Part shown: positions 12,960 to 62,155 of the stretch, one piece after another
Numbering within the stretch: position 1 is the stretch's first letter
Layout: the number at the start of each line of letters is the position of its first letter
The notes under the pieces: generated by a model
What the model was told of the DNA's origin: nothing
What the model saw: the letters and a program-made list of their open reading frames with translations, nothing else
Database searches by the model: none
Position numbers and translations under genes: made by a program
NCBI RefSeq assembly: GCF_030406045.1
Contig: NZ_CP128988.1
Span: 1,151,438 to 1,215,437, forward strand
Length of the DNA: 64,000 nucleotides
From: Thiohalobacter sp. IOR34
GTDB taxonomy: Bacteria > Pseudomonadota > Gammaproteobacteria > Thiohalobacterales > Thiohalobacteraceae
Direction of reading: 5' to 3'

Positions 12960-13703
12960 TCAGCCGGATTCCGTCCGCCCCTTCAACGCCCGCACCCAGA
13001 GCGCGGTGGCGCCGGCCACGGCGGTCGGCATGGCGATGAAGTTGATCACCGGGATCAGGGTCATCAGCAGCACCCCACTGCCGAAGCCCAGGGTCAGCAG
13101 CCGTCGTGAACCCAGCAGCCGGCGCTGGGCGGGGAACAGCAGGCGGTGGTTGTTGAGCGGATAGTCGGCGTACTCCAGGGCCAGCATCCAGGCGCTGAAC
13201 AGTCCCCAGAGCACGGGTGCCGCCAGGTTGAGGCCGGGGATCAGGAAGCAGAGGCCGACCGGCAGCGCCCGGAGCAGGAAGTAGAGCAGTTTCTGCACCT
13301 CGGACCAGAGGCTGGGCAGGATGTCCCGGAGGATCTGCCGCCAGCCGCCGATGCCTTCCAGCGACTGGCCGGTGAGGTGACGCTCCACGGCCTCCGCCAG
13401 CAGGCCGTTGAAGGGCGCGGCGATCAGGTTGGCGAGAATGCTGAAGCCGTAGAACACCACCAGCAGCACGCTGGCCGCGAACAGTGGCCAGAGCAGGTAG
13501 CGCAGCCAGGCCAGCCAGTCGGGCAGAAAGCCGAGCAGGTAGTCCATCAGCCGGCCGAACTCGCTGGCGGCGAAGCCGATCAGGCCCGCGAAGAGCAGCA
13601 GGTTGATGGCCAGCGGCACCAGAACGAAGCGCCGCAGGCGCGGTTGCCGGATCAGTTGCAGGCCGCTGGCGACGAAGCCGAGGCCCTGGATGAAATCCCT
13701 CAT
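12960..13703 (-). CDS. cysZ: CysZ/EI24-family membrane protein (sulfate permease-like)
   Basis: The 247-aa integral membrane protein matches the CysZ/EI24 family: MRDFIQGLGFVASGLQLIRQP at the N-terminus, TM segments near 27-47, 65-95, 140-170 and 205-235, and the signatures SILANLIAAPFNGLLAE and YPLNNHRLLFPAQR. CysZ of E. coli imports sulfate for cysteine synthesis. Its ATG overlaps the TGA of the kinase upstream (ATGA), a sign of translational coupling, and AGGAGGGGC precedes it. Pairing with a sugar kinase is unexpected; sulfate-transport function is inferred from family only. Confidence 0.88.
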   Translation of the reverse strand: MRDFIQGLGFVASGLQLIRQPRLRRFVLVPLAINLLLFAGLIGFAASEFGRLMDYLLGFLPDWLAWLRYLLWPLFAASVLLVVFYGFSILANLIAAPFNGLLAEAVERHLTGQSLEGIGGWRQILRDILPSLWSEVQKLLYFLLRALPVGLCFLIPGLNLAAPVLWGLFSAWMLALEYADYPLNNHRLLFPAQRRLLGSRRLLTLGFGSGVLLMTLIPVINFIAMPTAVAGATALWVRALKGRTESG

Positions 13704-15001
13704 GGGTGATGCCCCTCCTGCCGGGAATGGATGAGCTGGCCGTGCCGGGCCAGGCGGGCGCTGCCGCAGGCCGCCTGGCGTTCCGGCAGGTTGTGCACCG
13801 GGATGCCGAGCAGCCGTTCGCGGATCTCGCGCCAGGGCATGTTGCTGGCCCCGCCGCCGATACTGTACACGGCCTCCGGCCAGGGGGCGCCGAGTTCGTG
13901 CAGCAGGCGATAGCCGCGCCGCTCGATGCGCGCCATCCCCTCCAGCAGGCCCTGGAAGAAGCGCAGATCGTCGCGCGGCCGGGGCGAGACCCGGGGCGGC
14001 AGCGCGGGGTCGTTGATGGGGAAGCGTTCGCCGGGGGCGGGCAGGGGATAGTAGTCGAGGCAGGTGCGGTGGCGCGGGTCGAGACGGGCGGTCAGTTCGG
14101 TCAGTTGCGCCTGGCTGAAGAAGCGGCGCAGCACCGCGCCGCCGCTGTTGGAGGCGCCGCCGATCAGCCACAGGTCGCCGAGCCGGTGGCTGTAGATGCC
14201 ATATTCCGGGGCGTTGAGCGGGCGTTCGGCGAGCACCTTCAGCACCAGGGTGCTTCCCAGCACGCTGACCGCCTGCCCCGGGCGCTGGACCCCGGTGGCC
14301 AGCACGGCGGCAGTGCTGTCGGTGGTGCCGGCCACCACCAGGGTGTCTTCCGCCAGCCCCCAGCGCCGGGCCAGGTCCGGCTGCAGCTGACCGAGCGGGC
14401 TGCCGGCGGGGCGTATCTCCGGCAGCAGGCCGTCGGGGATGGGCAGTTCGGCCAGCCAGTCGGGCCAGCGGCGGGCCTGCGGGTCGTAGCCGAGCTTGAG
14501 GGCGTTGTTCTCGTCGCCGAGGTCGAAGCGTCCGAGCAGCCGCCCGCTGATCCACTCGGCCTGGTGCAGGGCGTGGCGGGCCGCCTCCCGGGCGGACCCC
14601 GAGAGCAGGTGCAGCAGCTTGGCCAGGCTGCTGCTCGCGCTGCGCGCCGGGCTGTCGGCGGGAGCCACGGCGGCGATGCGCCGGGCGGCCTCCGGGCGGC
14701 TGTCGTTGTACATCAGCGCCGGGCCGAGGGGCCGGCCCTCGCCGTCGGTCAGCAGCAGGGTGCCGGCGGTGCCGTCCACGGCCAGCGCGCGGACGCTGGC
14801 CAGGGAGGTCTGCCGACCGAGTTCCCGCAGCAGGGGGTCCAGCGCCTGCCACCAGAGCGCCGGATCCTGGCGTACGCCGTCCGGCCCGCGCTCCGGCGGG
14901 GGCAGGTCCAGCATCGCCTGGGTCAGGGGCCGGCCAGCGTCGTCACACAGGCAGGCGCGCACGCCCGAGGTCCCGAAGTCGATGCCGAGAAAGAGGTTCA
15001 T
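13700..15001 (-). CDS. FGGY-family carbohydrate kinase, probable D-ribulose kinase
   Basis: The 433-aa product is an actin-fold sugar kinase. It has LGIDFGTSGVRACLCDDAG (phosphate 1), VDGTAGTLLLTDGEG, LMYNDSRPEAA, SSSLAKLLHLL, DENNALKLGYD, GTTDSTAAVLATG (phosphate 2 region), LGSTLVLKVLAERPLN, IGGASNSGGAVLRRFF, LDYYPLPAPGERFPI and SIGGGASNMPW. Order and wording closely follow the cyanobacterial/plant SePSK-type D-ribulose kinases rather than XylB or GlpK. Such an enzyme would make ribulose-5-phosphate from D-ribulose. The ATG at 15001 begins the fold directly; a longer frame upstream runs into a repeat element. It ends overlapping cysZ. Confidence 0.85.
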   Translation of the reverse strand: MNLFLGIDFGTSGVRACLCDDAGRPLTQAMLDLPPPERGPDGVRQDPALWWQALDPLLRELGRQTSLASVRALAVDGTAGTLLLTDGEGRPLGPALMYNDSRPEAARRIAAVAPADSPARSASSSLAKLLHLLSGSAREAARHALHQAEWISGRLLGRFDLGDENNALKLGYDPQARRWPDWLAELPIPDGLLPEIRPAGSPLGQLQPDLARRWGLAEDTLVVAGTTDSTAAVLATGVQRPGQAVSVLGSTLVLKVLAERPLNAPEYGIYSHRLGDLWLIGGASNSGGAVLRRFFSQAQLTELTARLDPRHRTCLDYYPLPAPGERFPINDPALPPRVSPRPRDDLRFFQGLLEGMARIERRGYRLLHELGAPWPEAVYSIGGGASNMPWREIRERLLGIPVHNLPERQAACGSARLARHGQLIHSRQEGHHP

Positions 15002-15030: not shown

Positions 15031-15179
15031 TTAGCAGGCTGTTGAAAAAGTCTCTGGCGAGTGCGAGACAAGGCAAAAAATGGCGAAAAAGCGCAGTTTA
15101 CATGGTCGTAAATGAGCATTTTGAGCCATTTTTTTAACGCCGTATCGTGCCGTCAGAGGGTTTTTCAACAGCCTGTTAG
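15031..15179. mobile_element. 141-bp hairpin element with 4-bp TTAG duplication
   Basis: The core 15035-15175 begins CAGGCTGTTGAAAAA and ends with its inverse TTTTTCAACAGCCTG. It is flanked by TTAG on both sides (15031-15034, 15176-15179), a clean 4-bp target duplication. The interior also folds on itself with the tip TTTAC-ATGGTC-GTAAA near 15097-15112. It has no coding capacity, so it is a MITE-like, non-autonomous element. Similar GGCTGTTGAAAAA-ended palindromes are widespread in gammaproteobacteria. The right-hand TTAG contains (as CTAA on the minus strand) the TAA stop of queF. The T-rich arms could also terminate queF transcripts. Confidence 0.85.
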
Positions 15180-15565
15180 GGAAGCACTACCGGGGGCTTG
15201 GCCTGCCAGTCCGGCGCCTGGTGTTCGGCGACCACCGTGGTGTAGATGCCGCCGCGGACGTTGAACTCGGCGGTGACGCGCATGAAGCGCGGTGCGCAGG
15301 CCGTCACCAGGTCGCTGAGGATCTGGTTGGTGACTGCCTCGTGGAAGGCCCCCTCGTCGCGGTAGGACCAGATGTAGAGCTTGAGCGATTTCAGCTCCAC
15401 GCAGAGCCGGTTCGGCACATAGTCGACGTGCAGGGTGGCGAAGTCCGGCTGGCCGGTCTTGGGGCACAGGCAGGTGAATTCCGGGATCCGGATGCGGATG
15501 CTGTAGTCACGCTCGGGACGCGGGTTCTCGAAGGTCTCGAGCGTCTTGCTGGGCTGGGTAGACAT
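15176..15565 (-). CDS. queF: NADPH-dependent 7-cyano-7-deazaguanine reductase
   Basis: QueF reduces preQ0 to preQ1 in queuosine synthesis. The 129-aa product is the short unimodular type. It has [20 protein letters not shown] with nucleophile Cys34 and Asp41 (spacing as Cys55/Asp62 of B. subtilis QueF), the family motif [20 protein letters not shown] and C-terminal [12 protein letters not shown]. The ATG at 15565 is the natural start; longer upstream frames overlap the smc promoter. It is divergent from smc. The stop codon TAA lies in the target duplication of the adjacent palindromic element, so the last codons abut the insertion. Confidence 0.96.
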
Positions 15566-25697: not shown

Positions 25698-25866
25698 CTA
25701 GCAGCCTGTCGGACTCAGGACTGATCTACTGCGCGGGTGGGAGAGCGGCCCGAATCTCCCCGATTTCTCGTTGCGTAGTGCCCGCTATGCGCCTCGAAAT
25801 CGTGAAGATTCGTTCTCGTTCTCCCACCCTGCTCGCTACGATCGCCTAAGTCCGACAGGCTGCTAG
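25698..25866. mobile_element. 161-bp hairpin element, CTAG duplication
   Basis: The core 25702-25862 starts CAGCCTGTCGGACT and ends with the inverse AGTCCGACAGGCTG. It is flanked by CTAG at 25698-25701 and 25863-25866. Internal arms continue the hairpin: GGGTGGGAGA against TCTCCCACCC-type sequence, GATTTC against GAAATC, and a GCGTAG/GCTATGC tip near 25776-25794. It is non-coding. Its right CTAG is also the left CTAG of the next element, so the two insertions share a target site. It is related in layout and end sequence to the element at 15031-15179. Confidence 0.85.
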
Positions 25867-26114
25867 CCCGCATATTGCACCAAGGATTCGATGCCGAGGG
25901 CGAATCCGGCAAAGCAGCTTGGGCGATCGGCCGAAAAAGCATGGCCGTCGCCATGGTTCGAGGGGGATCGCTCAAGATGCGCAGCCCGATTCGGCCTGAC
26001 ATCGAATAGGCACAAAGTGTACCTGCCCAAACGGCTCTCTCATGGTCATCTCGGCCTTGTGTAACAGCCTCAATGCCGACCATGCAGACCGCCTTGGTGC
26101 AATATGCGGGCTAG
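25863..26114. mobile_element. 244-bp TIR element, copy A1, CTAG duplication
   Basis: The core 25867-26110 has 18-19 bp terminal inverted repeats starting CCCGCATATTGCACCAAGG and is flanked by CTAG on both sides. A central stem runs from ATTCGATG (25886-25893) to CATCGAAT (26000-26007), capped by CATGGC-CGTC-GCCATG (25940-25955). A second complete copy with paired substitutions lies at 60544-60796. There is no open frame of note. A 4-bp YTAR duplication fits families such as the IS5 group, but no transposase is present here, so family assignment is inference. Confidence 0.88.
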
Positions 26115-26542
26115 GGCTTCAACACCACACCAATCGCGGCCTGGAGACCGCTCCTACAACATATTGTGCCGCCACGCCCCGTAGGAGCGGCCTCCAGGCC
26201 GCGATGCTCGGAGTCAATCGTACAGGCACAAACTGTAACCCGCCCAAGGGGCCTTTCATGGTCATATCGTCCCTGTATTGCAGCACGAACCCCCTTCATG
26301 CGCGCCGCCGTGGTGCAATATGCGGGCTAGGGCTTCAACACCACACCAATCGCGGCCTGGAGACCGCTCCTACAACATATTGTGCCGCCACGCCCCGTAG
26401 GAGCGGCCTCCAGGCCGCGATGCTCGGAGTCAATCGTACAGGCACAAACTGTAACCCGTCCAAGGGGCCTTTCATGGCCATATCGTCCCTGTATTACAGC
26501 ACGAACCCCCTTCATGCGCGCCGCCCTGGTGCAATATGCGGG
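26111..26542. repeat. Two tandem 216-bp composite repeat units
   Basis: Units 26111-26326 and 26327-26542 are nearly identical; only a handful of bases differ. Each starts at a CTAG. It then holds a paired inverted motif (ATCGCGGCCTGGAGACCGCT... and GTAGGAGCGGCCTCCAGGCC..., the genome's REP-like arm). It ends with the right half of element A (ACAGGCACAAACTGTAAC ... GGTGCAATATGCGGG). Since 216 is divisible by three, a spurious 184-codon frame with a 72-residue repeat crosses them; it shows no protein signal. A diverged inverted copy lies at 43700-43860. Confidence 0.85.
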
Positions 26543-26585
26543 TTAACCCGGCAGCTGAACACAACCTGTATGGCTGCCGGGTTAA
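26543..26585. repeat. 35-bp mini-palindrome between two TTAA sites
   Basis: TTAA-CCCGGCAGC, a 17-nt loop and GCTGCCGGG-TTAA form a perfect 13-bp stem ending the repeat island. The loop holds CACAACCTGTAT, like the internal CACAAACTGTAA of element A. It looks like an internally deleted relative inserted at a YTAR site. It lies 130 bp before the vWA gene and could influence its promoter. Confidence 0.6.
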
Positions 26586-28388: not shown

Positions 28389-30065
28389 ATGATGGCGGGA
28401 TATGTCTACAGTCTGCTGGGGGTGCTGGAGCTGGTGTTCGTGCTCGCCGGCCTGTCGATCTATCTGCATCTGCGTCACAGCAAGGCCAGGCGACTCATCG
28501 ATGAACTGCAGGCCAGTCTTCGCGAGCAGAGCGGGAAGCAGGCGGCGGGGGCGGTCGATGCGGCCAAGGGGGAACATGCCGAGGCACCAGTTCCGGACTA
28601 TGCCAGCTTCCTGAACGAGGAACTGGAGGCATCCAGCCTGATGCTGGGACCCCAGCCGGAGGGTGAGGCGGAGCAGGGGGACGATACCGTGCGGCAGATG
28701 CTGGCAGCCCGTCACCAGTTCCTGCAGCTCGAACTTGATGTCCAGTCCCTGAGCAGGAAGGACCCGGAGAGCCGCCGCAAGCGGCTGGTGGAAGGCATGC
28801 AGAGCCTGCTCTCCAGTCTGTTGCCCGACAAGGATGGCGCAAACGATGCAGCGGTTGGCACGACGGAGACCCGTGGTGAAAAGGATGCGGCCGGCCTGAG
28901 CCGTGAACAGCAGCTCGAGGAGCAGCTCTCCCATCTGCGCGGGGTCATCGACAACCAGCACGAGGTGATGCGCGAACTCAAGCACATGCTGGAGGAGACA
29001 CTGGACGATTCGCCCCAGGCCCAGGAGATCATGCACAAGTTGCTCGATGCCGAGGGGCGCAGCAAGGAGATGGAGGCCTTCCTCGCCGGCTTCGCCTCGC
29101 CGGAGGCCATGGCGTCCAAGGGCGGCACCGTCCACCATCCGGACACCGACATGCTGCGTGACCTGGTCGGCAACCAGCAGCAGACCATCGATCATCTGCG
29201 CAATATGCTGCGGGACATCCTGCCGGAAACGGAAGAGACCAAGCGCTTGTGCGATGCCCTGAACAAGGTGCAGCGCACCAACCAGGAACTCGGCACCTGT
29301 GTCCAGGTGCTGGAGGACGAAAACCTGCGGCTGCGTGATCAGGTCGACAGCCTGCAGGCCCGGCTCGATGAACTCGGTCGGGCCGAGCCGGTGCCCTCGG
29401 AGGAGCCGTCAGCCGGCGAGCAGCCTCCCGCCGCCGGACCCGCGGCCGCAGAGGCGGAAACCGCAGAGGCGGAAACCGCAGAGGCGGAAACCGCAGAGGC
29501 GGAAACCGCAGAGGCGGAAACCGCAGAGGCGGAAACCCCAGAGGCGGAAACCCCAGAGGCGGAAACCCCAGAGGCGGAAACCCCAGAGGCGGAAACCCCA
29601 GAGGCGGAAACCCCAGAGGCGGAAACCCCAGAGGCGGAAACCCCAGAGGCGGAAACCGCAGAGGCGGAAACCCCAGAGGCGGAAACCCCAGAGGCGGAAA
29701 CCCCAGAGGCGGAAACCCCAGAGGCGGAAACCCCAGAGGCGGAAACCCCAGAGGCGGAAACCCCAGAGGCGGAAACCGGGGTGGCGGAAACCGGGGTGGC
29801 GGAGAGAGGTGGATCCGAACGCGAGCTGCAGATGCCGTCACCCGACGCCGTTGCCCTGGATGCCGACGAGGAGGGCGGACGGCCTGCCGAAGATGACATC
29901 GATGCCCTCCTCGACGAGGTGTTGCAGCGGCCGGAAGAGGAGGACGATGCCGACGCCGGCGTCGTCGATGACATCGATGCCCTGCTGGAGGCGGCTGCCG
30001 CACCCGCGGCCGATGCGGAAACCGATGCCGAGGCGCAGGCCGGCTCCGGCCAGGCTTCCGGCTGA
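28389..30065 (+). CDS. Membrane coiled-coil protein with Glu-rich pentapeptide repeats and DIDALL motifs
   Basis: I do not recognise a named family. The 558-aa product has an N-terminal TM segment (residues about 3-26), then charged heptad-like helices to about 335 (QQLEEQLSHLRGVIDNQHEV, LGTCVQVLEDENLRLRDQV). An (A/P)EAET pentapeptide tract spans residues 354-463, and the tail is acidic. The tail holds two near-identical motifs, DDIDALLDEVL (from 502) and DDIDALLEAA (from 527). These resemble the EIDALL helix at the N-terminus of FliM that docks CheY-P. The start is MMAGYV at 28389, with GAGAGGG upstream. It lies between the vWA gene and mrcB, all on one strand. Probably an inner-membrane scaffold with a cytoplasmic tail. 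Confidence 0.75.
   Translation: MMAGYVYSLLGVLELVFVLAGLSIYLHLRHSKARRLIDELQASLREQSGKQAAGAVDAAKGEHAEAPVPDYASFLNEELEASSLMLGPQPEGEAEQGDDTVRQMLAARHQFLQLELDVQSLSRKDPESRRKRLVEGMQSLLSSLLPDKDGANDAAVGTTETRGEKDAAGLSREQQLEEQLSHLRGVIDNQHEVMRELKHMLEETLDDSPQAQEIMHKLLDAEGRSKEMEAFLAGFASPEAMASKGGTVHHPDTDMLRDLVGNQQQTIDHLRNMLRDILPETEETKRLCDALNKVQRTNQELGTCVQVLEDENLRLRDQVDSLQARLDELGRAEPVPSEEPSAGEQPPAAGPAAAEAETAEAETAEAETAEAETAEAETAEAETPEAETPEAETPEAETPEAETPEAETPEAETPEAETPEAETAEAETPEAETPEAETPEAETPEAETPEAETPEAETPEAETGVAETGVAERGGSERELQMPSPDAVALDADEEGGRPAEDDIDALLDEVLQRPEEEDDADAGVVDDIDALLEAAAAPAADAETDAEAQAGSGQASG
29448..29807 (+). repeat. 15-bp in-frame minisatellite, 22 units plus 2 degenerate
   Basis: Unit (G/C)CAGAGGCGGAAACC, 15 bp, repeats 22 times without any other substitution (29448-29777). 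The order is six GCA (Ala) units, eight CCA (Pro), one Ala, seven Pro. Two GGGGTGGCGGAAACC-like units (GVAET, GVAER) follow. Near-perfect DNA identity points to recent expansion by slippage. Because the unit is five codons, copy-number change alters linker length without frameshift. Confidence 0.97.
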
Positions 30066-44087: not shown

Positions 44088-44353
44088 TACTAAGACAAAC
44101 GATAACAAAGCCTCATTCAGCGGGTCTCTGGACGATCAGCCCGCAAGGCGCAATGGCGCCGGCAGGGTGATTCCCTGTCAAGCCATAGCAACCTGCGGAT
44201 GGCCGTCCAGAGGCCCGCCCGCAGGGAGCTTGCCAGGCGCCCCGGCTCTGCGTTGTACCCCTTGGCAAGGGCGGGCCATTCCCTGCGGGGCACGCCTTGA
44301 TCCGGGGCGCCTGGCAAGCTCTGAATGACGCTTTGTTATCGTTTGTCTTAGTA
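44088..44353. mobile_element. TIR element of family B, first copy (about 266 bp)
   Basis: Left end TACTAAGACAAACGATAACA and right end TGTTATCGTTTGTCTTAGTA are inverse repeats of about 33 bp, with one internal mismatch. The interior is GC-rich, has no gene and shows the palindromic GGCGCCC.../CCGGGGCGCC and GGCAAGGGCGGGCCATTCCC. A related copy lies at 47131-47412. Both ends fall at TA dinucleotides, as expected for IS630/mariner-type insertion, but no duplication longer than TA is seen. The stop codon TAA of dsbB is inside the right TIR. Confidence 0.8.
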
Positions 44354-47070: not shown

Positions 47071-47130
47071 GACATGGGCTCCGTGGCCGGGAGCGTGGCG
47101 GATTGCGCTGTCTGGGTCATTCGCCCATTA

Positions 47131-47412
47131 TACTTGAGACAAACGATGATAAGCCTCATTCAGCGGGTGTCCGGGCGGCCAGCCGCAAGGTAGACCCGCG
47201 GCGGCATGGTCATCCCATGTCAAACCGGGGTTTATGCCCTTTGGGTACACACCGCGGCTGGCCGCCCGGACACCCGCCCGCAGGGAGCGGCCCCGGCGTC
47301 CCGGCTCGGCGTTGCCTTGCTTGGCAAGGGCGCGCCATTCCCGGCGCAACGCGCCTTGATCCGGAACGCCGGGGTCGCTCTGATTGAGGCTTATCATCGT
47401 TTGTCTCAAGTA
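47131..47412. mobile_element. TIR element of family B, second copy (about 282 bp)
   Basis: Left end TACTTGAGACAAACGATGAT and right end ATCATCGTTTGTCTCAAGTA are inverse repeats extending about 34 bp with one mismatch. The interior shares GGCAAGGGCGSGCCATTCCC and CGCCTTGATCCGG with the copy at 44088-44353, but the TIRs have diverged between copies in matched fashion. It lies in the divergent region between the YcgN-like gene and the antiporter gene and may carry or disrupt promoters. Otherwise the gap 47071-47544 shows no gene. Confidence 0.82.
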
Positions 47413-47544
47413 TGCCGGATCGATGCCGCCTGGCCTGCTGGTCACCCCCGTGCCGGGGAGCAGCCGGCCGTGGGGGCTGGCCGCCGTGATTCCCGGTGCC
47501 CACGAGACGGACACGGCCGACAACCCATCTGGGAATCGGGATTC

Positions 47545-56294: not shown

Positions 56295-56302
56295 GAGCCC
56301 AC

Positions 56303-57103
56303 CGAATCGCGGCGTGGCCGCCGCTCCTACGGGGTATGGCGGAACCGCTTGTTTGCAGGAGCGGCCTCCAGGCCGCGATCGGGTTACCGCCCAAATCGCG
56401 GCGTGGCCGCCGTTCCTGCGGGGCATGGTGGAACCGCTTGTTTGCGGGAGCGGCCTCCAGGCCGCGATCGGGTTACCGCCCAAATCGCGGCGTGGCCGCC
56501 GCTCCTACGGGGTATGGCGGAACCGCTTGTTTGTAGGAGCGGCCTCCAGGCCGCGATCGGGATTGACCGCCCGACTCGCGGCGTGGACGCCGCTCCTACG
56601 GGGTATGGCGGAACCGCTTGTTTGCGGGAGCGGCCTCCAGGCCGCGATCGGGATTGACCGCCCGAATCGCGGCGTGGCCGCCGTTCCTACGGGGCATGGC
56701 GGAACCGCTTGTTTGCAGGAGCGGCCTCCAGGCCGCGATCGGGATTGACCGCCCAAATCGCGGCGTGGACGCCGCTCCTGCGGGGCATGGAGGAACCGCT
56801 TGTTTGTAGGAGCGGCCTCCAGGCCGCGATCGGGTTACCGCCCAAATCGCGGCGTGGCCGCCGCTCCTGCGGGGCATGGCGGAACCGCTTGTTTGTAGGA
56901 GCGGCCTCCAGGCCGCGATCGGGATTGACCGCCCGACTCGCGGCGTGGACGCCGCTCCTACGGGGCATGGAGGAACCGCTTGTTTGTAGGAGCGGCCTCC
57001 AGGCCGCGATCGGGTTACCGCCCAAATCGCGGCGTGGACGCCGCTCCTACAGGGCATGGCGGAACCGCTTGTTTGTAGGAGCGGCCTCCAGGCCGCGATC
57101 GGT
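56303..57103. repeat. Nine-unit palindromic REP array, 89/91-bp period
   Basis: Nine units each hold ATCGCGGCGTGG(C/A)CGCCG plus CTCCT, a GGGGCATGGCGGAACCGC-type loop and (T/C)AGGAGCGGCCTCCAGGCC. Successive arms start at 56361, 56450, 56539, 56630, 56721, 56812, 56901, 56992 and 57081. Spacing is 89 bp with the joint GGGTTACCGCCC or 91 bp with GGGATTGACCGCCC. It fills the space between the GGDEF-EAL stop and the dapD stop, ending 1-2 bases before the latter. It should fold into a row of hairpins and could terminate both convergent genes. Frames inside it are artefacts. Confidence 0.95.
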
Positions 57104-57104
57104 C

Positions 57105-57926
57105 TCAGATGTCCCGCAGCAGCTCGTTGATGCCCACCTTGCTCAGGGTCTTGGCGTCCACCTTCTTGACGATCACCGCGCAGTACAGGCTGTACTTGCC
57201 GTCCCTGGAGGGCAGGTTGCCGGATACCACCACCGACCCGGCCGGCACCCGGCCATAGAGGATCTCGTCCTTCTCGCGGTCGTAGATGCGGGTCGACTGG
57301 CCGATGTAGACGCCCATGGAGATCACCGAGCCTTCCTCGACGATGACCCCTTCCACCACCTCGGAGCGGGCACCGATGAAGCAGTTGTCCTCGATGATGG
57401 TCGGTGCGGCCTGCAGCGGTTCCAGCACGCCGCCGATGCCGACGCCGCCGGAGAGGTGCACGTTCTTGCCGATCTGGGCGCAGGAGCCGACCGTCGCCCA
57501 GGTGTCGACCATGGTGCCGGAGTCGACATAGGCGCCGATGTTGACATAGGAGGGCATCAGCACCACGCCGGGGGCGATGTAGCTGCCGCGGCGGGCGGTG
57601 GCCGGCGGTACCACCCGCACCCCGCCCTCGCGGAAATCACGGGAGTTGTAGTCGGCATACTTGGAGGGCACCTTGTCGTAGTAGTTGGTGAAGCCGCCCT
57701 TCATGAACTGGTTGTCCTCGATGCGGAAGGACAGCAGCACGGCCTTCTTCAGCCAGTCGTTGACCTGCCACTGGCCGTCGATCTTCTCCGCCACCCGCGC
57801 CTTGCCGCTGTCCAGCAGGGCGATGGCCTCCAGTACCGCCTCCTTGACCAGCGGCTCGACGCTGCGCGGATTGATGTCGGCGCGGCGCTCGAAGGCTTCC
57901 TCGATGATGGGCTTGATGTCACTCAT
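57105..57926 (-). CDS. dapD: Tetrahydrodipicolinate N-succinyltransferase
   Basis: DapD succinylates tetrahydrodipicolinate in the lysine/DAP pathway. The 273-aa product has the helical N-domain ([20 protein letters not shown]) and [16 protein letters not shown]. The left-handed beta-helix carries hexapeptide repeats such as [39 protein letters not shown] and [14 protein letters not shown]. It ends [19 protein letters not shown]. It lies 37 bp after dapC. The repeat array abuts its stop codon. Confidence 0.97.
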
Positions 57927-60172: not shown

Positions 60173-60547
60173 ATGAAGGTCACCCGCCTGCACCACGTCA
60201 GTCTGCTGGTGGCGGATACCGCGCGGGCCCTGCAATTCTACTGCGGCCTGCTGGGGCTGGAGCTGGACCCGGCGCGTCCGGACCTGGGCTACCCCGGCGC
60301 CTGGCTGCAGCTCGGCGGGGCGCAGATCCACCTGCTGGAACTGCCGAACCCGGATCCCGTCCGGGGCCGGCCGCTGCACGGCGGTCGTGATCGCCACATC
60401 GCCCTGACTGTCGACGATCTGGATGCCGTCCGCGAGCGGCTGGATGCGGCCGGGATCGAGTACAGCCTCAGCCGTTCGGGCCGCCGGGCGCTGTTCTGCC
60501 GCGACCCCGATGCCAATGCCGTGGAGCTGATCGAGACAGCGGACTAA
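60173..60547 (+). CDS. Glyoxalase/VOC-family protein
   Basis: The 124-aa protein is one VOC module of two beta-alpha-beta-beta-beta units. It has RLHHVSLLVADTARALQFYC, GLLGLELDPARPDLGYPGAW, IHLLELPNPDP, GGRDRHIALTVDDLDAV and RALFCRDPDANAVELIETAD. Metal-type His and Glu ligands are at H7 or H8, E (LLEL), H (RHIAL) and the terminal Glu. The reaction is unknown. GAGAGGAGAG precedes the ATG. The TAA stop lies in the CTAA duplication of the adjacent element. Confidence 0.9.
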   Translation: MKVTRLHHVSLLVADTARALQFYCGLLGLELDPARPDLGYPGAWLQLGGAQIHLLELPNPDPVRGRPLHGGRDRHIALTVDDLDAVRERLDAAGIEYSLSRSGRRALFCRDPDANAVELIETAD

Positions 60548-60796
60548 CCCGCATATTGCACGAAGGATTCGAGTTTCAGGGCGAATCTGGCCAAGCAGTT
60601 TGTTCGATCGCCCGCCGAAGCATAGCCGTCGCTATGGTTCAAGGGGGATCGGGCGAAATGCGACGCCAGATTTGGTCTGAACTCGAATAGGCACAAACTG
60701 TAACAGGGCACAATTGCTCGCATAGGTGATCACTGCCTTGATAAATACCGGAAAAATTACGCTTTCAAGGCCGCCTTCGTGCAATATGCGGGCTAA
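60544..60796. mobile_element. 245-bp TIR element, copy A2, CTAA duplication
   Basis: The core 60548-60792 has 19-bp TIRs CCCGCATATTGCACGAAGG, flanked by CTAA at 60544-60547 and 60793-60796. It is homologous throughout to 25863-26114. Its central stem ATTCGAGTT (60567-60575)/AACTCGAAT (60679-60687) and tip CATAGC-CGTC-GCTATG (60621-60636) differ from copy A1 in paired positions. It sits between the VOC stop (inside the left CTAA) and the pncB stop (6 bp beyond the right CTAA). It is non-coding. Confidence 0.9.
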
Positions 60797-60802
60797 CGGT
60801 TG

Positions 60803-62155
60803 TCAGGGGACAGCCGTGGCCGCAGCGTCGGCCTGCCGGGTGACTGCCTGCAGCGCCGGCGAGACGTCCACTGCATAGCGCGGCTCGGCCGCCTCCAGGC
60901 GGCGCAGCCGCTCCGGCAGGCGCTGCAGTTCCCGCGCGGCATGTTCCCGTATCCGTTCCAGGTCCGGCAGCGGCGCCAGCAGTCGGCCGCCGCGCATCAC
61001 CGGCTGGAGCAGCGGCTCGCCCGGCTGGCGGTCGTCCAGGATGGTCAGGGTATCGCCCGCCAGCCGTCCCTGGTCGTCCAGACGGCGGTAGACCTGCTTG
61101 CGACCGGCCCAGGTCGCCTTGCCCTCGGAACGCTTGCGGCGTGGCCGGCCGGCATACTCCTGCAGCTTGTAGGCACAGTCCAGCGAGGGCGCGTCGCTGG
61201 AGACGTCCATGCGCGTGCCGATGCCGAAGCCGCTGATGGGCGCGCCCGCTGCGAGCAGGGCCTGCAAGCGGTATTCGTCCAGATTGCCGGAGGCGAAGAT
61301 GCCGGTCTGCTGCAGGCCGCCGGCGTCGAGGATGGCCCGCACCCGACGGGCGTGCTCGGCCAGGTCGCCGCTGTCGATGCGTACCGCCTTGATGTGGATG
61401 CCGCGGGCCGCCAGCCGGGGGGCGAGTTCGACCACTTTCTTCGCCCCGGCCTCGGTGTCGTAGGTGTCGATCAGCAGCACCACATTGTCCGGGTGGGAGA
61501 GGGCGAAATGTTCGAAGGCCTGCATCTCGTCGTCATGGGCCTCGATATAGGAATGGGCCATGGTGCCGAACAGCGGGATGTCGAAGAGCTGTCCGGCGAG
61601 CACCGTGGCGGTGCCGTTCAGCCCGGCCAGATAGGCGGCGCGCGCGGCCAGCAGCCCCGCCTCCCCGGCATGGGCGCGGCGCATACCGAAATCGACCAGC
61701 AGGGCCTCGGCTGCGGCCAGGCGCATGCGTGCCGCCTTGGAGGCGATCAGGGTCTCGAACTGCAGCAGGTTGATGATCCGGCTCTCGATCAGCTGGGCGA
61801 CGGGCAGCGGGGCGGTGACGCGCAGGATGGGTTCGTCGGCGAAGAAGGCGGTGCCCTCGGGCATGGCGTCGACGTCGCCCTCGAAGCGCAGCCCGGCCAG
61901 GTAGTCGAGCAGCGGGCGGCGGAAGCGGCCGCTGGCCTCCAGCCATTCCAGTTCCCCGGCCTCGAAGTGCAGCGCCTGGAGAAAGTCGATGACCCCGGCC
62001 AGCCCGGCCGCGAGCAGGAAGTTGCGCTCCCGGGGCAGGCGGCGGACGAAGAACTCGAACACCGCCGTCTCCTCCAGGCCATGATCGAGATAGGACTGCA
62101 TCATGGTCAGCTGGTAGAGGTCGGTGAGCAGGGGGCTGTCGCTACGGTATCTCAT
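60803..62155 (-). CDS. pncB: Nicotinate phosphoribosyltransferase
   Basis: PncB joins nicotinate to PRPP, giving NaMN for NAD salvage. The 450-aa product has LLTDLYQLTMMQSYLDHGLE, FFVRRLPRERNFLLAAGLAG, ESRIINLLQFETLIASKAAR, DFGMRRAHAGEAGLLAARAA and FGTMAHSYIEAHDDE with the conserved His. It also has LLIDTYDTEAGAKK, IRIDSG-type RIDSGDLAEHARRV and FASGNLDEYRLQALLAAGAP. Its ATG overlaps the pncA TGA. A palindromic element lies just beyond its stop. Confidence 0.95.
   Translation of the reverse strand: MRYRSDSPLLTDLYQLTMMQSYLDHGLEETAVFEFFVRRLPRERNFLLAAGLAGVIDFLQALHFEAGELEWLEASGRFRRPLLDYLAGLRFEGDVDAMPEGTAFFADEPILRVTAPLPVAQLIESRIINLLQFETLIASKAARMRLAAAEALLVDFGMRRAHAGEAGLLAARAAYLAGLNGTATVLAGQLFDIPLFGTMAHSYIEAHDDEMQAFEHFALSHPDNVVLLIDTYDTEAGAKKVVELAPRLAARGIHIKAVRIDSGDLAEHARRVRAILDAGGLQQTGIFASGNLDEYRLQALLAAGAPISGFGIGTRMDVSSDAPSLDCAYKLQEYAGRPRRKRSEGKATWAGRKQVYRRLDDQGRLAGDTLTILDDRQPGEPLLQPVMRGGRLLAPLPDLERIREHAARELQRLPERLRRLEAAEPRYAVDVSPALQAVTRQADAAATAVP

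Follow-up and report, generated by a model that had tools for sequence, protein, structure and literature searches.

The Two Insertions and Their Host Genes

The window, a 64,000-nucleotide stretch of the genome of Thiohalobacter sp. IOR34, contains two different short elements, A2 and B, each inserted exactly at the end of a gene, as well as an adjoining pair of elements located between them. The features discussed below are as follows (coordinates are those of the window).

13700..15001, minus strand: carbohydrate-kinase-like gene (open reading frame; ATG at 15001 by reading)
15031..15034, plus strand: left target duplication TTAG of element B (direct reading)
15035..15175, no strand: element B, a 141-bp MITE with ends CAGGCTGTTGAAAAA...TTTTTCAACAGCCTG
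15176..15179, minus strand: right target duplication TTAG of B; minus-strand cTAA is the queF stop codon (15178-15176)
15176..15565, minus strand: queF (PF14489)
25702..25862, no strand: copy of element C, with CTAG on both sides
25867..26110, no strand: second A copy of the window, adjoining C and not on a stop codon
60173..60547, plus strand: gene of the VOC/glyoxalase family whose end coincides with the target site (PF00903, 62.7 bits, Pfam)
60544..60547, plus strand: left target duplication CTAA of A2; TAA at 60545-60547 is the VOC stop codon (direct reading)
60548..60792, no strand: element A2, a 245-bp MITE with terminal inverted repeats CCCGCATATTGCACGAAGG...CCTTCGTGCAATATGCGGG
60793..60796, plus strand: right target duplication CTAA of A2 (direct reading)
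60803..62155, minus strand: nicotinate phosphoribosyltransferase gene, convergent to the VOC gene (PF17767)

Direct reading of these positions verified what an earlier, sequence-only reading had described, namely that A2 is bounded by CTAA with the VOC stop codon in the left copy, and that B is bounded by TTAG with the queF stop codon in the right copy on the minus strand. The sequence-only reading had taken A2 and B to be different elements sharing one type of YTAR duplication, and they are indeed two distinct MITEs. The opposing nicotinate phosphoribosyltransferase gene has its stop codon 6 bp past the right CTAA of A2.

The insertions were also said to have occurred without loss of coding sequence, and comparison with orthologues agrees, as both genes are untruncated. 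The queF product aligns over its full length with the orthologues of all ten family relatives (129/129 residues, same end point), and the C-terminus of the VOC protein lies within a few residues of the orthologue ends in two of the compared genomes (G001 and G010). In relatives, queF is followed by the kinase gene in the same orientation, with a gap of very few bases, whereas here element B sits between the two genes. With a gap this small, the queF stop codon is nearly the sole non-genic site available at this place.

Element Families and Target Duplication

Family A amounts to about 218 copies, with 217 forward and 220 reverse ends detected in the 2.96-Mb genome and 0 matches to a reversed control pattern. 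At 245 bp (< 500 bp), with 19-bp ends and terminal inverted repeats, A has the size and the ends of a MITE, and it also displays the corresponding target duplication, since identical 4-bp flanks, mostly YTAR, were found in 80 of 138 pairs. When the flanks were checked for frame, 78 of 132 pairs carried an identical 4-bp flank and matches dropped once the frame was moved, indicating that the duplication unit is four bases. The 80 identical flanks were mainly CTAG (48), followed by TTAG (12), CTAA (6) and TTAA (5). For B, 11 paired copies were present in a 0.99-Mb sample of the genome, six of them with identical flanks, all six YTAR. A third family, C (161 bp), is represented in the sample by 34 paired copies, of which 18 have identical flanks, again YTAR in 18/18 cases. 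A 4-bp target duplication is therefore common to A, B and C, nearly always YTAR, with CTAG as the commonest form.

These flanks are true target duplications, as the sequence-only reading had assumed: they vary across sites and agree within a site, and an occupied and an empty version of one place exist in a sister genus. A genome of another genus in the same family (G003) carries a 234-bp C-like element exactly on the queF stop codon, with CTAG on both sides (L349, near 1890), and the homologous queF place in its congener (G007) has a single CTAG and no element. Taken together with B in the genome of the window, the queF stop codon has been struck twice, independently.

The C copy and the second A copy of the window form a chain, CTAG-C-CTAG-A-CTAG, at 25698-26114, in which the two elements share a duplicated CTAG. 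Such chains with a shared duplicated target occur 11 times in the sampled genome, as expected if a later element used the duplicated target of an earlier one.

Other repeats were noted alongside these families. Long inverted ends (AAGACAAACGATAACAAAGCC-like / GAGACAAACGATGATAAGCC) characterise a further family located at 44088-44353 and 47130-47413, and the B element at genome positions 882320-882994 is interrupted by a copy of the AAGACAAACGATAACAAAGCC/GAGACAAACGATGATAAGCC type plus another family (GGGCCTGTTAACACTATCCC). The region 56297-57194 is a tandem array of a ~ 90-bp unit (spacing 89/91) with hairpin-like repeats TCGCGGC...GCCGCTCCTAC, which are also scattered at 26133, 26349 and 43756. 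At 26001-26545, a segment of the A element recurs together with its neighbour on the 3' side in a 216-bp array, and a direct repeat array with ~ 25 units of 15 bp spans 29356-29893.

Probable Parent Transposon of Family A

Family A carries no transposase of its own. Its ends match those of a complete, autonomous 1631-bp element, flanked by CTAG on both sides, in the gammaproteobacterial chromosome OY282433.1 (L243). The 429-aa protein of this element is an IS1380 transposase (PF13701, 545.9 bits; NF033539, 418 bits against a cut-off of 180), and three full copies of the element in OY282433.1 are flanked by CTAG, CTAG and CTAA. No IS1380 transposase above the cut-off was present in the host genome. 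The ends and target duplication shared with a complete IS1380 element point to A as a probable IS1380-type MITE, whose mover would be either gone from the host or never resident in it. The nature of the mover is inferred here from the IS1380 element of another genome.

No parent was seen for B or C, whose ends differ from those of A. Viral contigs yielded loci with B ends and loci with C ends, no parent being present at the B loci, and a plasmid search for A returned 0 matches. Large end-to-end pairs in the host's own genome (1.7-2.9 kb) were considered as parents and turned out to contain ordinary genes (e.g. YaeQ-like) with no transposase, while a four-copy IS4-like transposase of the same genome, weakly matching PF13701, could be tied to neither A nor B. 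A possible stop coincidence of the autonomous IS1380 copies was likewise discarded, as the frame at the sole promising copy was a spurious open reading frame.

Occupancy of Stop Codons in the Host Genome

The frequency of stop-codon insertions was determined in the 0.99-Mb sample of the 2.96-Mb genome, which consists of stretches taken around element copies. Paired elements were excised leaving one copy of the duplication, genes were called on the emptied sequence with our own dicodon model rather than taken from curated annotation, and the insertion sites and all other YTAR sites were classified identically. The 125 unique YTAR insertion sites divide into 45 exact stop codons, 66 other intergenic sites, 13 coding sites and 1 gene edge. 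Exact stop codons thus make up 45/111 of the non-genic insertion sites compared with 68/541 of the empty non-genic YTAR sites; stratification by tetranucleotide gives an odds ratio of 3.26 (45 observed vs 25.9 expected, z 5.1). The requirement for matching flanks itself favours stop codons, because selection holds the gene-side copy while intergenic copies decay. When this filter was lifted and decayed sites were kept, 49 stop codons were observed against 33.4 expected, a 1.5-fold excess (p 0.00025). Hence, the enrichment at stop codons over intergenic YTAR sites, on which the sequence-only reading had staked its proposal, is present in both forms of the count.

Coding YTAR sites in the sample are occupied in 5% of cases and stop sites in 40% (45/113), and the genes struck at their stop codons look complete. 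Their proteins are 92-979 aa long in 44 of 45 cases, and a random draw includes what we take to be ClpP, HscB, TatD, FliS and FlgL, each complete to the C-terminus. Gene ends are clearly preferred among the surviving insertions, and the picture of gene ends as a safe harbour fits these results. Stop coincidences occur in all three families, whose ends differ. A split meant to single out young copies, based on a mixed consensus, revealed no clear trend with identity, and no conclusion is taken from it. The stop codons of the sampled genes are TAG in 193 cases and TAA in 72.

Possible Alternatives: Chance, Targeting and Termination

Since YTAR holds TAA or TAG, two stop coincidences in one window might mean nothing. 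Stop codons account for 23% of the empty CTAG sites outside genes, so that two per window would be unremarkable alone, but the excess over background in the sampled host genome and in independent genomes makes chance a highly improbable explanation. The independent set comprised 117 stretches with the same ends, drawn from numerous gammaproteobacteria plus a small number of other records, and here stop codons represented 19/51 of the non-genic insertions vs 156/1000 of the empty sites (stratified odds ratio 2.43, z 2.8). A more specific proposal would be that the transposase prefers stop codons, or some DNA state at gene ends, beyond YTAR. As insertions avoid coding DNA, stop codons should properly be compared with YTAR sites in the vicinity of gene ends. 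Relative to such sites at a distance of up to 60 bp from a 3' end, the stop-codon excess in the host genome is 1.21-fold with the duplication filter (p 0.010), which, like the coincidences in three families with different ends, would favour such targeting; without the filter, which by itself raises the share of stop codons, it falls to 1.11-fold (p 0.11). The view of stop codons as the preferred site therefore holds relative to intergenic YTAR sites at large, whereas the excess nearly vanishes next to gene ends, and a particular preference for the stop codon as such is not established. In the independent genomes, no excess was observed at this level, the zone 1-30 bp past the stop codon being occupied as much as the stop codon itself. 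We know of no IS1380 component that could read a stop codon, and consider active targeting improbable. One observation lies outside the prediction of pure gene-end tolerance: in the host genome, the zone 11-30 bp past the stop codon is oddly empty, with 3/38 sites occupied vs 45/113 stop codons.

The sequence-only reading went further and proposed that each element would gain a ready place as a 3' terminator, in which case copies at stop codons would be retained since the hairpin ends transcripts or blocks convergent read-through. The hairpins are certainly very stable, with predicted folding energies of - 127.5 kcal/mol for A2 (z - 11.3) and - 57.5 kcal/mol for B (z - 9.0). The gaps between genes offer a further hint. 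Among convergent stop codons, occupied ones have shorter gaps than empty ones (7/20 vs 2/38 below 40 bp; rank test p 0.006), and among codirectional stop codons a short gap is less common at the occupied ones (3/25 vs 16/47), although both comparisons are exploratory and belong to a series of several tests. Short convergent gaps leave few other free sites, however, so that this signal fits tolerance as well. Against a role in termination, no intrinsic terminator, that is, a G+C-rich stem followed by a T-tract, was found at A2 or B. The share of convergent neighbours is equal at occupied and empty stop codons (20/45 vs 38/85), and the orientation of the elements relative to the gene (13 vs 10) displays no clear bias. 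The copy of B at queF also speaks against this role, as it separates two genes that in relatives adjoin each other and run in the same direction. A terminator role for the hairpins is not supported, and retention of the copies on its account appears unlikely.

Target Sequence and Tolerance of Gene Ends as the Probable Explanation

The placement of the IS1380-type and other YTAR MITEs is best accounted for by their target sequence combined with tolerance of gene ends, to which we assign a probability of roughly three in four. According to this explanation, A2 and B are non-autonomous miniature transposons, inserted by a transposase at YTAR with duplication of that tetranucleotide, and both strands would be cut four bases apart, a geometry suggested by the duplication. 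As it contains TAA or TAG on both strands, a YTAR site can provide the stop codon for a gene to its left or to its right. In either arrangement, the flank beside the gene keeps a whole YTAR, so that frame and stop codon survive, as can be read at the sites themselves. The idea that the duplication repairs the stop codon has to be abandoned on the same grounds, because the gene-side flank always retains its own YTAR. Insertions into coding DNA would be purged by selection, and those at or just past the 3' end tolerated, as the occupancies suggest; about a third to two fifths of the surviving non-genic insertions would then lie exactly on stop codons. Each insertion moreover duplicates its own target, allowing further elements to land alongside and giving rise to chains. 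As tolerance and YTAR explain the placement, no terminator function is needed.

A bolder extension would see in the overlap of YTAR with the stop codon a way in which the transposon has adapted to its host. Gene ends would then act as landing pads that preserve themselves and that several unrelated transposon families exploit in parallel, and copies residing there would change the transcript ends of convergent genes. We regard this extension as speculative and rather unlikely.

Relation to Known Elements

Family A resembles the IS1380 family in its terminal repeats and its CTAG/CTAA duplications, both matching the 1631-bp element of OY282433.1, and differs in being devoid of the transposase. 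For IS1247, a member of that family, the listed duplication is 5 bp long (PMC3281130). Duplication of YTAR is described for IS5 of E. coli (PMC10359306), and an exact, conserved 4-bp duplication for IS701 (PMC2266710). Both are like A in the 4-bp length, and IS5 also in the YTAR motif, whereas their transposase families differ from that of the presumed parent of A, which is IS1380.

MITE-like repeats such as BOX, QMITE1 and QMITE2 often lie at or just past the 3' ends of genes, as observed here. In pneumococcus, the stop codon is encoded by BOX at the extreme 3' end of 36 CDSs (PMC3049150), and QMITE2 of Coxiella resides mainly in 3' untranslated and intergenic regions (PMC5896051). In those cases the gene end is overlapped or provided by the element, whereas here the stop codon itself is the target and the gene retains its sequence unaltered. 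When ISPsp10 (IS5 family, IS427 group) inserts beside TAA, a stop codon is contributed by the target (PMC4133298); that stop codon serves the transposase gene of ISPsp10 itself, whereas the one considered here belongs to a host gene. Our search of the open-licence literature found no paper joining the YTAR target with stop-codon occupancy. The placement of MITEs at 3' ends and the YTAR target of IS5 are known already, and the useful part of the present analysis is the quantified link between motif and stop codon.

This link offers a simple, countable reason why hundreds of transposon copies can be present in a compact, gene-dense genome, as the target is itself a stop signal and many insertions at such a target would be harmless by construction. 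The same count is applicable to any element with a 4-bp YTAR or TTAA target. For the annotation of MITEs, it provides a practical rule, namely to inspect stop codons and to be prepared for chains wherever an insertion creates the target used by the following one.
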